From: a virus
Length of the DNA stretch: 63,883 bases
Reading direction: 5' to 3' (one strand)
Virus record (IMG/VR): IMGVR_UViG_3300047380_000774
Span: 1 to 63,883 of that record
This document shows positions 7,118-46,299 of this stretch, in pieces. The position numbers and the translations under genes are program-made. The first letter of the stretch is position 1; each line of letters begins with the position of its first letter. Under the pieces are notes generated by a model. It was given only the letters and a program-made list of their open reading frames with translations, made no database searches and was not told the origin of the DNA.

Positions 7118-8977
7118 ATGGGAAAAGTAATTGGTATTGACTTAGGAACAACAAACTCATGTATCTCTTTTATGGAGGGTGGAGAACCTAAAGTTATTGT
7201 AAATAATGAGGGAGGTAGGACTACCCCTTCAATTGTATCGTTTAAGGATGGCGATATTAAAGTAGGAAACACCGCAAAAAGAGTTTCCGTTACAAATCCT
7301 TTAAACACCATATACTCGGCTAAAAGATTTATCGGTCAGAGATATAGTGAGTTAAATGACGACCATAAAAACGTCGCATATAAAATTAAAAAGGGAAATA
7401 ACGACTCTGTTGTTATAACCGCAAATGGTAGAGACTACGTACCTCAAGAGATTTCAGCAATGGTCTTACAAAACATTCGTAAAAGTGCTGAAGCGTTTTT
7501 AGGTGAGTCTGTTACTGAAGCGGTTATTACGGTACCCGCCTATTTTAACGATTCACAACGTCAAGCAACTAAAGAGGCGGGTGAAATTGCGGGATTAAAG
7601 GTATTACGTATTATTAACGAACCAACGGCAGCTGCGTTAGCATATGGATTAGATAAGAAAGATAAAGACATGAAGGTCGTTGTCTTTGACTTAGGTGGTG
7701 GTACATTTGATGTGTCTATTTTAGAGTTAGGTGATGGTATCTTTGAGGTATTATCTACTAACGGTGATACACAATTAGGTGGTGATAACTTCGATGAAGC
7801 GATTATCGACCACTTTATGTCTCTAATCGAGATTCAATCAAATGTAGATATCTCTGAAGACCCAATGGCGATTCAAAGAGTTAGAGAGGCCGCTGAGAAA
7901 GCTAAGGTGGAATTATCAACGGCAAATCAAACCTCTATTAGTTTACCTTATATATCTGCAGGTGCTAGTGGACCAATTCACTTTGAGACTACATTGACCA
8001 GAGCAGACTTTGATAGATTAACATCTAATTTAGTTGACCGTTCAATCAAACCTTGTGAAAAAGCATTGTCAGATGCGAACCTAACAATTGGTGAGATTGA
8101 TGAAGTAATCTTAGTAGGAGGTTCAACTCGTATACCAGCAGTACAGAATGCGGTTAAGAAGTTATTCGGTAAAGAACCAAATAAAGGAGTAAATCCTGAT
8201 GAGGTTGTTGCAATGGGAGCATCGATTCAGGGTGGTGTATTGTCAGGAGACGTTACAGATGTATTATTATTGGATGTCACTCCACTTTCATTAGGTATTG
8301 AAACAATGGGTGGTGTTATGACAAAATTGATTGAATCAAATACAACAATCCCCACTAATAAGTCACAGACGTTCTCAACGGCAATCGACAATCAAACGGT
8401 AGTAGAAATACACGTTTTACAAGGTGAAAGACCAATGGCCACAAATAACAGAACATTAGGTAAGTTTAAATTAGAAAGTATTCCAATGGCACCAAGAGGT
8501 ATCCCACAGGTAGAAGTAACTTTTGATATTGACGCCAATGGTATTTTAAATGTTTCGGCTAAAGATAAAGGAACCGGTAAAGAACAAAAGATTAAGATTG
8601 AATCCTCAACAGGTTTATCTGACGCAGACATCCAAAAGATGAAAGACGAGGCAGAACAAAATAGAGAAGAGGATAAAAAGAAGGAAGAAAAGATTAAACT
8701 TATTAATGAAGCCGATTCATATGTGTTTACAACAGAGAAACAAATGTCTGAGTTAGGTGACAAAATTTCTGAAGATGAAAAAACAAACTTAGAGAAGTTA
8801 ATAGGAGAACTTAATGAAGCTAAGACTTCAGAAAACTTAGAACTTATCACGAGTAAGAAATCTGAACTTGAGGGTGTGTGGAATCAAATAACCACGAGAC
8901 TATATCAAACAGGTGAAACAGGTGATAGTGGTGGACCTGATGAGGGGACACAAGATGTCGATTACGAAGAAGTTTAA
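7118..8977 (+). CDS. dnaK: full-length Hsp70 chaperone DnaK
   Basis: A 619-aa Hsp70 of normal bacterial length. The nucleotide-binding domain shows [10 protein letters not shown] (6-15), [28 protein letters not shown] and [10 protein letters not shown]. The linker [15 protein letters not shown] leads into the substrate-binding domain, followed by a helical lid rich in Lys/Glu and the EEV end typical of bacterial DnaK. Everything needed for ATPase and substrate binding seems present. No DnaJ or GrpE is in the window, so host co-chaperones may serve it. T4-like phages usually rely on host chaperones. Likely uses are folding the large virion proteins or countering stress during infection. It is divergent from clpC and followed by a strong terminator. 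Confidence 0.97.
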
Positions 8978-39534: not shown

Positions 39535-39912
39535 TTAGTCAAACTTTGCAATCTCAAAAACTTGAGACATGTGCTTATCCCCTTTTGGGTTAAAATACGG
39601 TCTAGGCGTTTCAAAAGTGTCGTTAGTTGGTGAACTATTAGTTATTTTATCTAATCTAAATAATCTCCACCCTGGTTGGTTTTCAGGGGTATCACTCGAC
39701 CCTCTAACTTGCCAAGCCCTTAATACAACGTTTCCTGATACATTATGAGGACCAAAGGCAACAGGTTCGATTTCCCTATAACCTTTATTAATCGTTTGGT
39801 CACCTGCGTAAAAAATAGTGATAACTTTTTTGTTACGTATTGCGTCAGCGATAGTATCACGACTAACGGCCTCTTTAATAATTAAAGATTTAAGTGACTG
39901 TATTAGTTTCAT
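39535..39912 (-). CDS. small WYL-like domain protein
   Basis: 125 aa. ADAIRNKKVITIFYAGDQ, YREIEPVAFG, VVLRAWQVRG and GWRLFRLDKITN follow the strand pattern of WYL domains (ligand- or nucleic-acid-binding regulatory domains), here without any DNA-binding or enzymatic partner domain. Stand-alone forms occur in other large phages. It may sense a nucleotide ligand in a defence-interaction role, which is conjecture. The gene overlaps the repeat protein gene by 1 nt. Confidence 0.5.
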   Translation of the reverse strand: MKLIQSLKSLIIKEAVSRDTIADAIRNKKVITIFYAGDQTINKGYREIEPVAFGPHNVSGNVVLRAWQVRGSSDTPENQPGWRLFRLDKITNSSPTNDTFETPRPYFNPKGDKHMSQVFEIAKFD

Positions 39913-40298
39913 TAGAAATTAGGATATTCGTTTGATGGTCCATATTGATTAGTCGACGTATTACTACCTCTGGTTAAAATATCAGTGGTCCCACCAATAG
40001 TGTTAGTTTGTCCTTTACCAGCCTCATCACCATCTGATAGTGCGTTAGGATGAGAAGAACCATAAGAGTTAGAATCGTTATATTCGTTACTATTAACTAA
40101 TGTTTGCCTTGTTAGTATATCAGTCGAACTACCTGTTGTGTTAGTTAACCCTTTACCAGCTTCGTCACCGTCTGACAGTGCGTTAGGGTGGGTAGAACTA
40201 TATTCATCACTCTCAGTACCGTCGTAGGTGTTTGAGGTCATCAAAGCAGTTCTTTGTTGATTTGCGATTTCTGTTAGTTTTTCGTTTGCGTTTGACAT
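39912..40298 (-). CDS. repeat protein with two near-identical ~45-aa units
   Basis: 128 aa. Two copies of an HPNALSDGDEAGKG ... NT ... TDILTR unit stand in tandem (about 36-66 and 83-112), joined by Asn/Ser/Thr/Tyr-rich linkers. There is no hydrophobic core, so it is probably extended or disordered. It has its own late-type element 11 nt upstream, which favours a virion role. Function unknown. Confidence 0.6.
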   Translation of the reverse strand: MSNANEKLTEIANQQRTALMTSNTYDGTESDEYSSTHPNALSDGDEAGKGLTNTTGSSTDILTRQTLVNSNEYNDSNSYGSSHPNALSDGDEAGKGQTNTIGGTTDILTRGSNTSTNQYGPSNEYPNF

Positions 40299-43015: not shown

Positions 43016-43360
43016 ATGGAACATTTTATAAAACAACATTCACAGGAACCAATTTTATCGGTTACGTTATATAACGACGAAAAATTCTTTAAAGAACCTT
43101 TTGGTGATAGAATTGAGAATTCTATTATTACTTTTAATATGGTTGATGAAAAAGGGGCGTATAAAATATTAAACGGTGAGTGTGACTTAATTTTTGAAAA
43201 TGGTGACTACTCTATCATATATCCTTTTACCAAGTCAGATACTAAAAAAATTGGGGAATATAAAGGAGAATTTAAAATACAATTCTTAAACGACACGTAC
43301 AGAGTGTCTACTGAAACCATACTTCCAATAAAAGAAGAATTAATCGTCTCAATTATTTGA
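43016..43360 (+). CDS. small beta-rich structural protein (114 aa)
   Basis: All-beta pattern: ILSVTLYNDEKFF, SIITFNMVDEKGAYKIL, CDLIFENGDYSIIYPFT, IGEYKGEFKIQFL, ETILPIKEEL. The overall series resembles the small N-terminal Ig-like domain of baseplate upper proteins in other phages, but I cannot fix a family. It lies 24 nt after the appendage-like gene in the same direction and may be its partner. Confidence 0.5.
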   Translation: MEHFIKQHSQEPILSVTLYNDEKFFKEPFGDRIENSIITFNMVDEKGAYKILNGECDLIFENGDYSIIYPFTKSDTKKIGEYKGEFKIQFLNDTYRVSTETILPIKEELIVSII

Positions 43361-43386
43361 TAATTTACCAAGTTTTCGTATCTTTG
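43357..43386 (+). promoter_or_regulatory. Bacteroidota-type promoter of DNA polymerase
   Basis: TTG (43357-43359), 19-nt spacer, TATCTTTG (43379-43386). It overlaps the end of the preceding gene and predicts a leader of roughly 35-40 nt that contains the hairpin at 43407-43424. Confidence 0.7.
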
Positions 43387-43406
43387 TTTTGAATGTCAAA
43401 GAGTAA

Positions 43407-43424
43407 TCTCACCATTGTGTGAGA
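43407..43424 (+). promoter_or_regulatory. hairpin directly before the DNA polymerase start codon
   Basis: Perfect 6-bp stem TCTCAC (43407-43412), loop CATTGT, GTGAGA (43419-43424); the ATG follows after 4 nt. A second inverted repeat GAGACA / TGTCTC overlaps the ATG. T4 gp43 represses its own translation through a hairpin at this place, so the same logic is possible here. Confidence 0.45.
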
Positions 43425-43428
43425 GACA

Positions 43429-46299
43429 ATGTCTCAGACGAAAAACAATATTAAAATGGTAACTACAGAACAAATTGAATCCTTTCTACTAGGAGAAGAC
43501 GACGAAAAATATATTGTCGCATTAGAGTATGACTACAGAACCGACAAGGTATACAAAGTTATTCAAGACCCTGATAAGGGCAAACAAATCAAATCAGATA
43601 CCTTTACTCCATTCGCTTGGGTTGGCGACCTTAGAGGGAAGAACTTCTATAATGGGTCAAAAGCACAACAAAAAGATGCGATGACACATAACGGTATTAT
43701 GATTGAAACTCTTAATACTATGGGTGACCCGAGAATGGAATCAGGTCTTAGGTACATCGTAAAATCAACAAAATCTTACTCATCATTAGTAAACTTCTTT
43801 AGAAAGGGTGGTTTAGACCCGTGGAGTCGTGATAATTCAGATTGTATAACAATACTACCACCAGTGGAGATGTATTTGGTACAAAAAGAAAAAAGACTAT
43901 TTAAAGGGTTTGAAGAGTATGACGAACTACACCGTTTTGTTTTCGATATTGAAACAACGGGTCTATCACCTGAAACGAGTAAAATATTCTTAATAGGGAT
44001 GAAAGATAACAAAGGTTATCAAAAATCTTTATCCGCAGAGAACGAAGAAGAAGAAGCTAAAATCATTGAAGAGTTCTTTGAAGAGATACATAAAATAAAA
44101 CCAACATTAATTGGCGGGTATAACTCGGCATTTTTCGATTTTCCATTTATATTACGTAGAGCGGAGATTTTAGGGTTAGATATTAAAAAGATAGCAAGAA
44201 CCTTACACCCTGAAAAACCATTACGACAAAAAGATTCAATTCTTAAGTTAGCCAATGAAATGGAGGACTTCACACAAACAATGATGTGGGGGTATAATAT
44301 TATTGATATCGCACATGCGGTACGTAGGACACAAGCAATTAATTCAGACATTAAGAGTTGGGGTCTTAAATACATCACACAATTTATTGGTGCTGAAAAA
44401 GAGAATCGTGTATACGTACAGGGGGATAAGATTGGTAAAACCTATTTTGATAACGAGCAGTTTTATTACAACCCTAAGTCTGGCGGGTTTAAGAAAATAG
44501 GAGACCCTGGTACAGAAAACTTACTACAGAGATTCCCAAATCAATTTGAGATTAAGACAGGTAAGAATATCATTGAGATGTATTTGGATGATGACCTTTA
44601 TGAGACTATGGTTGTCGATGAAGAGTTTAATCAAGCGAACTTTCTACTATCTAAATTGGTACCGACAACATATGAGAGACTATCGACTATGGGTACTGCG
44701 ACATTATGGAAGATGATTATGCAGGCTTGGTCATATAAAAATGGTTTAGCAATTCCATCGAGGGGTGAGAAGAGACCATTTACAGGGGGGTTATCAAGAT
44801 TACTAGCCGTGGGTTATTCAACCGATGTACTTAAACTCGATTACTCGTCACTATATCCGTCAATTCAGTTAGTACACGATGTGTTCCCTAAGTGTGATGT
44901 GACAGGTGCGATGAAGATGATGTTAAAATATTTCCGTGATACTCGTATTAAATACAAAAAGTTAGCAGCAGATTTCTATGTGGAAGACCCTAAATTATCT
45001 TCTCAGTATAACCGTAAACAACTACCTATTAAAATTTTCATTAACGCATTTTTTGGTTCATTATCAGCACCACACGTATTCCCGTGGGGTGATATGGATA
45101 TGGGTGAACAGATAACATGTACAGGTAGACAATATCTTAGACAGATGATTATGTGGTTTATGGAGAGAGATTATAAACCATTAGTAATGGACACAGATGG
45201 GGTTAACTTCTCAGTACCTGAGGGTAGAGATGCTCACACATATGTCGGTAAAGGATTAAATGGATTAGTTGTTGAGGGTAAAACGTATAGTGGTTCTGAA
45301 GCGGATGTTGCTGAGTATAATGACATCTTTATGAGAGACGAAATGGGGTTAGATACTGACGGACAATGGCCCGCGACAATTAACTTAGCACGTAAGAATT
45401 ACGCCCTTTTAACCAACACGGGAAAGGTTAAATTAACGGGTAACACTATTAAGTCTAAAAAAATGTCTACATATATTGCAGATTTCTTAGATAAAGGGTT
45501 GGCGTTATTATTAGATGGTAAGGGACATGAATTTTTAGAGTACTATTATGAGTATGTAACAATTATCTATAACAGACAGATACCACTTTCTAAAATTGCT
45601 AATAAAGCACGTGTTAAGCAATCAACCTCAGATTATAAAATACACATACAAAAGAGAACTAAGTCAGGTTCATTAATGTCTAGACAGGCACATATGGAGT
45701 TAATTTTAAAACACGAAATTAAAGTAGGTTTAGGTGATACAATATACTACGTTAACAACGGAGCACGTAAATCTCACGGTGACGTACAAAAAGTAAAAGA
45801 TGTTGTAAAACTTAATTGTTATTTTATTCCTGAAGACGATATTACAAAACACCCCGATAAGTTAGGTGAGTACAATATCCCAAGATACTTAGCGGCATTT
45901 AACAAACGTATCGAACCACTATTAGTGGTATTCAATACAGAAATTAGGGATGAAATATTAGTTGACGACCCTAACGACAGACAATACTTCACACGAGGTC
46001 AAACAGAGTTGGTTAGAGGTTATCCTCGTAGAGACGGTGACCAAGATACGTTAGATGAGGTATTAACACTATCTGATACAGAACTTAAGTTTTGGAAAGA
46101 TGTAAATATAGACCCATATTATATGTACGTAGACGGTACAATGTCATTGGTTGATAATAAAAGAATTGAGCATAACCAAGATTTATTAAAAAACTTTGTA
46201 GAGGTAGAGAAGAAAGCTTCAATAACCAATAGGGTAATACCACAACCTAAACCTTTTGTTAAACCTAAAACGAACCAACAAACGTTTAAATTTAAATAA
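43429..46299 (+). CDS. family B DNA polymerase (T4 gp43-like)
   Basis: 956 aa. Exonuclease motif I FDIETTG (Asp173, Glu175), Exo II near GGYNSAFFDFPF and Exo III in the following region; polymerase motif A KLDYSSLYPSIQ (Asp471), motif B KIFINAFFGS, motif C VMDTDGV (Asp588, Asp590). Both proofreading and polymerisation should work. The substitution of Ser by Gly in DTDS is a variation seen in some phage enzymes. A start at 43456 (residue 10) is possible, but the hairpin and spacing favour 43429. A bidirectional terminator follows. Confidence 0.96.
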   Translation: MSQTKNNIKMVTTEQIESFLLGEDDEKYIVALEYDYRTDKVYKVIQDPDKGKQIKSDTFTPFAWVGDLRGKNFYNGSKAQQKDAMTHNGIMIETLNTMGDPRMESGLRYIVKSTKSYSSLVNFFRKGGLDPWSRDNSDCITILPPVEMYLVQKEKRLFKGFEEYDELHRFVFDIETTGLSPETSKIFLIGMKDNKGYQKSLSAENEEEEAKIIEEFFEEIHKIKPTLIGGYNSAFFDFPFILRRAEILGLDIKKIARTLHPEKPLRQKDSILKLANEMEDFTQTMMWGYNIIDIAHAVRRTQAINSDIKSWGLKYITQFIGAEKENRVYVQGDKIGKTYFDNEQFYYNPKSGGFKKIGDPGTENLLQRFPNQFEIKTGKNIIEMYLDDDLYETMVVDEEFNQANFLLSKLVPTTYERLSTMGTATLWKMIMQAWSYKNGLAIPSRGEKRPFTGGLSRLLAVGYSTDVLKLDYSSLYPSIQLVHDVFPKCDVTGAMKMMLKYFRDTRIKYKKLAADFYVEDPKLSSQYNRKQLPIKIFINAFFGSLSAPHVFPWGDMDMGEQITCTGRQYLRQMIMWFMERDYKPLVMDTDGVNFSVPEGRDAHTYVGKGLNGLVVEGKTYSGSEADVAEYNDIFMRDEMGLDTDGQWPATINLARKNYALLTNTGKVKLTGNTIKSKKMSTYIADFLDKGLALLLDGKGHEFLEYYYEYVTIIYNRQIPLSKIANKARVKQSTSDYKIHIQKRTKSGSLMSRQAHMELILKHEIKVGLGDTIYYVNNGARKSHGDVQKVKDVVKLNCYFIPEDDITKHPDKLGEYNIPRYLAAFNKRIEPLLVVFNTEIRDEILVDDPNDRQYFTRGQTELVRGYPRRDGDQDTLDEVLTLSDTELKFWKDVNIDPYYMYVDGTMSLVDNKRIEHNQDLLKNFVEVEKKASITNRVIPQPKPFVKPKTNQQTFKFK

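Follow-up and report, generated by a model that had tools for sequence, protein, structure and literature searches.

The polB locus and its leader

The window, meaning the whole stretch of DNA analyzed, is a single virus record of 63,883 bases. The phage carries T4-type portal (gp20), capsid (gp23), and tail sheath genes. The gene that we call polB encodes a family B DNA polymerase, as judged from Pfam exonuclease and polymerase domains, the PHROG DNA polymerase, and family B polymerases in the PDB. Its match to T4 gp43, likewise of family B, is weak (hhalign probability, 34%; E of 0.0004 over 177 columns). We found no close relative among cultured phages: there was no DNA match, and the polymerases were at best 24 to 29% identical in 17 records. 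An AlphaFold model of the polymerase was unusable (mean pLDDT, 45.6), and a search for RegA in seven records gave no match, with the control also lacking a match anywhere. Elsewhere, the window holds a full-length HSP70/DnaK gene (positions 7118 to 8977; Pfam E of 1.8e-251), which also occurs in 2 of 15 related records searched, and a 128-aa ORF on the minus strand (39912 to 40298) with an internal near-repeat, SSTHPNALSDGDEAGKG / GSSHPNALSDGDEAGKG. The features around the polB start are as follows (MFE, minimum-energy fold).

43016-43360, + strand: upstream co-directional ORF, 114 aa, no assigned function; its stop codon TGA (43358-43360) overlaps the -33 box
43356-43359, + strand: -33 promoter box TTTG; box and spacing shared by 76 leaders
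43365-43370, + strand: UUACCA, predicted to pair in upstream-initiated RNA with UGGUAA (43457-43462), across the polB start codon (MFE of 43360-43480)
43379-43386, + strand: -7 promoter box TATCTTTG, consensus TAnnTTTG, from the published consensus and the -12 to -5 position
43385-43390, + strand: 5' strand of the distal helix, UGUUUU, predicted partner of 43442-43447 in upstream-initiated RNA (MFE of 43360-43480)
43391, + strand: predicted transcription start, from the -12 to -5 box position
43394-43397, + strand: P1 5' strand UGUC, from covariation in relatives
43401-43403, + strand: P2 5' strand GAG, from leader comparison
43404-43406, + strand: internal loop 5' side UAA, from leader comparison
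43407-43424, + strand: P3 hairpin UCUCAC-CAUUGU-GUGAGA; sequence changes in relatives, pairing kept
43425-43432, + strand: internal loop 3' side GACAAUGU; AAU and then a purine in 76/76 distinct leaders
43433-43435, + strand: P2 3' strand CUC, from leader comparison
43437-43440, + strand: P1 3' strand GACG, from covariation in relatives
43436-43455, + strand: A-rich ribosome-entry stretch, predicted open in promoter-born RNA and paired in upstream-initiated RNA
43456-46299, + strand: polB, family B DNA polymerase, 947 aa; start set by leader comparison

The hairpin TCTCAC-CATTGT-GTGAGA lies at 43407 to 43424, as the initial annotation of this DNA had noted. That annotation placed the polB start at the ATG at 43429. 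All 76 distinct leaders compared carry ATGGT at the site corresponding to 43456, and an in-frame ATG within 75 nt upstream of this position occurs in just 8 of them. Since polB thus starts at 43456, the hairpin ends 31 nt before the start codon rather than 4 nt, and the leader measures about 65 nt instead of about 37 nt. An overlapping GAGACA/TGTCTC pair, proposed to alternate with the hairpin as a switch, does occur at 43423 to 43435, with its arms as drawn separated by a single unpaired base; the shifted pair TGAGA/TCTCA belongs to the MFE structure of the window's promoter-born RNA. This second helix is not kept in relatives, as its pairing letters are gone in the 39 of 76 distinct leaders with a GGG/CCC, GGU/ACC, or GGU/GCC outer helix. 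We rejected a switch between mutually exclusive helices because the outer helix P2 covaries (GAG/CUC, GGG/CCC, GGU/ACC) without a matching change in the 3' arm of P3.

From the window alone, the hairpin is unremarkable. Versions of it with up to two mismatches were observed four times in the window, with 1.9 expected, and the leader folded just slightly better than shuffled sequences did (z = -1.1; 34/200 shuffles equally good). It is conservation that gives the hairpin its significance.

Conservation and covariation of the leader core

Leaders of relatives were collected in protein-guided scans that gave 23 loci, then 80 loci (kept from 182 relatives), and then 80 more on partly repeated contigs; from this third scan we used 40 of the 80, as the rest repeated second-scan contigs or had no leader. 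A pattern expression found the same core before polB in 77/77 leaders (the window plus 76) and, after the 40 loci were added, in 115/117 (the window plus 116 IMG/VR loci). The two nonmatches were L181, in which the expression failed and the motif is visible in the sequence, and L162, with too short an upstream stretch. Some loci are cut inside or just before polB and have no or almost no leader (e.g., L013, L021, L023, L077, and L079; also L082, L083, L187, and L203). The search expressions demand parts of the motif; the raw leader sequences show it without them. All relatives belong to one polymerase clade and share nearly one genomic context.

The core consists of P2 (three pairs), an internal loop with (A/U/G)AA opposite NNAAURN, and the hairpin P3. 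Among the 76 distinct leaders, P2 was GAG/CUC in 35, GGG/CCC in 22, GGU/ACC in 16, GGG/CUC in 2, and GGU/GCC in 1. The 5' side of the internal loop read AAA (43 leaders), UAA (31), or GAA (2), and the 3' side had AAU plus a purine in 76/76, a count to be read with the fact that the search expression itself required AAT plus a purine. The sequence of P3 is highly variable while its arms stay paired, and its apical loop varies as well, mostly between 3 and 6 nt. A simple count of P3 pairing failed in 9/76 leaders, eight of them with a C-A first pair enclosing the stem and one (L066) with an internal mismatch.

The initial annotation had suggested comparing related leaders for compensatory changes, and these are present along with the hairpin itself. 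In nine gap-free sequences, 100% of the cells were paired and 5/14 pairs had changed on both sides; in 42 sequences (40 distinct), 98.4% of the cells were paired and 10/14 pairs had changed on both sides. The larger alignment was fitted to the model and is biased towards it. Its 42 sources were chosen to avoid a chance match (L035, minus strand) in the first large CM alignment, so that these pair counts lean towards model-detectable sequences. Structures slid along the same alignment were 31 to 50% paired, and the covariation score of 0.381 was reached by none of 500 shuffles (0.141 in shuffles). P1 also covaries in relatives (UGUC/GACG, UGUU/AACG, UACC/GGUG, UACU/AGUG). Wobble-type cells were G-U in 43 cases and A-C in 3 (13 and 3 without the outermost P1 pair), which indicates that the strand that folds is the mRNA sense strand.

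Scans with patterns carrying no information on polB matched 41, 47, and 24 stretches, and polB lay directly downstream in 40, 46, and 23 of these (109/112); the remaining three break off no more than about 120 nt from the motif. A model search of 25 whole records gave a single strong match in 21, while model R2 missed the 4 with GGU-type leaders (G017, G018, G019, and G022). Second matches in the 25 records had E values of 0.06 or worse. The window has one copy, its second match (E of 0.05) not being convincing. Bacterial genome contigs yielded one unrelated weak match. In Rfam release 15, the window leader had no match near any gathering score, and five relatives had 0 hits. The phrase "DNA polymerase" appeared zero times in the phrase-searched text of two papers on candidate structured RNAs (PMC2864571 and PMC8040213). 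Literature searches confined to open-access papers gave no title suggesting a polB-leader element, which does not prove its absence from print.

The promoter and the exposure of the start codon

The polB promoter matches the Bacteroidota type, for which excerpts of the literature give a TTTG near -33 with a TAnnTTTG box (PMC7366714) and place the latter at -12 to -5 (PMC9723704). In 76 leaders, the -33 box read TTTGAC (67), TTTGAT (5), or TTGACT (4), and its spacing to the -7 box was 20 in 72 leaders and 19 in 4; the script allowed only these two values, and a run allowing 18 to 22 had a similar outcome. From the -12 to -5 position of the -7 box, transcription in the window is predicted to start at 43391, upstream of the hairpin, so that the hairpin would be part of the transcript. 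Judging by this promoter type, the phages seem to infect Bacteroidota.

The ORF upstream of polB is co-directional in 67/68 loci with enough sequence (L049 gave no ORF call), and most relatives have a homologous ORF of about 117 aa at this place. Its stop codon usually overlaps the -33 box, which leaves no room for a terminator. Four loci (L050, L063, L064, and L071) carry a different gene family [MDCPK(A/S)TQDLE...] before polB, with the promoter and RNA core unchanged, as if the upstream gene had been swapped right up to the promoter. In these loci, the stop codon of the unrelated gene precedes the box and TTTGAC is still present; the -33 box is therefore no mere by-product of coding.

In the window, the -7 region and the sequence preceding the polB start codon are complementary, and the 5' strand of the distal helix (43385 to 43390) lies upstream of the predicted transcription start. 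As the conserved -7 box is T rich and the leader is A rich, some of this pairing comes for free. We compared the pairing of each pre-start segment with its own upstream segment and with those of other clades. Own segments paired better, by about 2.5 kcal/mol, with P reaching its floor of 0.002 in each finer clustering (12, 17, and 22 clusters); the effect was weaker with a coarser division into 5 clusters (P = 0.019 for 30 nt and 0.059 for 14 nt). In the 44 leaders with a short spacer, the gain persisted without the 4 nt immediately preceding P2 (P = 0.001 to 0.006) and thus covers DNA upstream of the predicted transcription start. No significant gain was seen in the 32 long-spacer leaders, the window included, for sequence lying over 12 nt upstream of P2 (P = 0.09 to 0.19), nor across all leaders when the distal helix was cut more deeply (P of about 0.4).

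Exposure of the start codon was measured as the mean unpaired probability of positions -14 to +4, with the longer RNA containing 60 nt more upstream sequence. Across 17 clusters, the predicted exposure was 0.70 in promoter-born RNA, 0.35 with own upstream sequence, and 0.58 with shuffled upstream sequence, own being below shuffled in 17/17. With the upstream sequences of other phages for comparison, the values were 0.68 (promoter-born), 0.32 (own), and 0.53 (other phages'). Own was below swapped in 21/22 clades (short-spacer leaders, 11/12; P = 0.003); the exception, L092, went in the opposite direction (0.59 own and 0.52 swapped). The same test at control sites, consisting of the upstream gene's start and three internal ATGs, gave no effect (P = 0.22 to 0.92). 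In the window, exposure was predicted to fall from 0.78 in promoter-born RNA to 0.12 with its own upstream sequence, where UUACCA pairs with UGGUAA across the start codon in the MFE structure. The longer RNA of L037 folds far better than its shuffles (z = -4.0; 0/200 as good), which that of the window does not (z = -1.2; 26/200 as good). The promoter-born RNA of the window is predicted to prefer an alternative fold (-12.0 kcal/mol, compared to -9.9 for the consensus), with a P2 pair probability of 0.03.

Control of polB and known phage systems

It is well supported that this phage, whose capsid and portal genes are T4-like, has a cis-acting RNA control element before its family B polymerase gene. 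This part of the initial annotation stands; a literal gp43 operator, the start codon chosen there, and the exclusive helix pair are not supported. The leader structure is almost certainly a functional RNA. Our main reading, to which we give a probability of roughly 0.55, is that this conserved structured leader controls polB translation through two layers, one set by transcript origin and the other by a trans-acting factor. Read-through transcripts from the upstream gene would contain the promoter region, and in them the distal helix, P1, P2, and P3 would form a single extended rod in which the start codon and the region before it are paired, so that no polymerase would be made from them. In promoter-born transcripts, the distal helix would be missing its 5' strand, leaving the start open. 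The folding predictions make such occlusion in upstream-initiated RNA fairly probable. The core remaining at the 5' end (P2, internal loop, and P3) is a putative site for a trans-acting factor; as the core stops some 20 nt short of the AUG, a bound factor would block ribosome entry. The conserved internal loop resembles a site for protein binding, and that a factor binds it is plausible and slightly favored. The most economical candidate, by analogy with T4, would be the polymerase itself, an identity that we propose only tentatively.

A simpler explanation is a pure gp43-type operator, in which polB translation is repressed by polymerase bound to the core, with the flanks serving only to stiffen the operator and transcript origin playing no part. 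The exclusive association with polB and the conserved unpaired bases, which suggest a specific binder, would fit, as would the position of the window hairpin at -49 to -32, given that an excerpt of PMC3014915 places the T4 hairpin "about 40 bases upstream." We nevertheless judge this explanation to be rather improbable. T4 conserves an 8-nt apical loop, whereas the apical loop here is variable and the conserved bases lie in an internal loop; the two polymerases match only weakly; and nothing in it predicts coevolution between the region upstream of the transcription start and the start codon region. A hairpin that shields the 5' end of polB mRNA from decay would agree with P2 lying a few nucleotides from the predicted 5' end (6 to 8 nt from box to P2 in the 44 short-spacer leaders), but that function calls for no conserved internal loop, and one would expect the hairpin on further phage genes; we found a single strong copy per record. 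Such a stabilizer is therefore improbable.

Still less credible is a small-molecule riboswitch, for instance a nucleotide-sensing one. A conserved internal loop between covarying helices close to a start codon is what such an RNA might display, yet this element is very small, has no Rfam relative, and was found only in phage contigs before one gene. We give as little credence to an element acting at the DNA level, such as an operator or a replication origin linked to the promoter. The promoter and dyad do adjoin a replication gene, and the helices overlap the -7 box, but the stem sequence is free to vary as long as pairing is kept, the intermediates are G-U rather than A-C, the position is fixed to the polB start, and the GC skew shows no clear sign of a replication origin.

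The two-layer reading has a stronger form, which we consider somewhat unlikely: an undescribed phage RNA family that both gates translation by transcript origin and carries its own feedback operator. The promoter itself would then supply the 5' strand of the rod that silences read-through RNA, and the internal-loop site in promoter-born RNA would let the polymerase or a replisome partner limit polymerase synthesis. If true, these phages would possess a polymerase operator with an RNA architecture other than that of T4, in hosts that seem to be Bacteroidota. Translation in Bacteroidota rarely uses Shine-Dalgarno pairing, and the leader offers a concrete, testable case of posttranscriptional control in such a setting. 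A strongly supported structured RNA family, in no Rfam entry and tied to one essential replication gene, spans many uncultivated T4-like phages. Polymerase autoregulation is a textbook T4 finding, and the leader raises the question of whether it evolved again with another RNA shape. The layout, with the promoter inside a stem, allows control by transcript origin to be tested directly.

Like the T4/RB69 gene 43 operator (PMC3014915), the polB leader is a cis element before a family B phage polymerase gene, has a hairpin about 40 nt before the AUG, and would control translation initiation; by analogy with T4 gene 43, the polymerase may regulate its own synthesis. The T4 operator is an 18-nt hairpin with the 8-nt loop AAUAACUC and a conserved UAAC, whereas the polB leader has two or three stacked helices, a variable apical loop, a conserved internal loop, and an embedded promoter; the conserved UAAC apical loop was not found across the 76 distinct leaders. 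In L072 and L074, the eight letters of the T4 loop, AAUAACUC, appear in the 3' strand of the internal loop together with P2, probably by chance because the other leaders differ. Rfam release 15 families share the character of a covarying cis-regulatory RNA, with no gathering threshold reached.

The leaders of T4 genes e, soc, 49, and I-TevI resemble the polB leader in that the initiation region is sequestered in an RNA helix, and for gene e, promoters around the 5' strand yield transcripts that lack this strand and are well translated (both from an excerpt of PMC3014915). In our folding predictions, the polB initiation region is likewise paired in upstream-initiated RNA and open in promoter-born RNA. 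The predicted start places the promoter within the 5'-strand DNA, clearly in the 44 short-spacer leaders and only partly in the 32 long-spacer leaders, including the window, and the gene order (67/68 co-directional) allows upstream transcripts to enter polB. The systems differ in that gene e is a lysis gene, silent on early transcripts, whereas polB is a replication gene with a Bacteroidota-type promoter and a conserved core within the rod. Since the gp43 loop is absent and the gene e features are seen only in prediction, we assign the polB leader to neither system; by analogy, it would work like T4 gene e control and possibly like gene 43 control as well.
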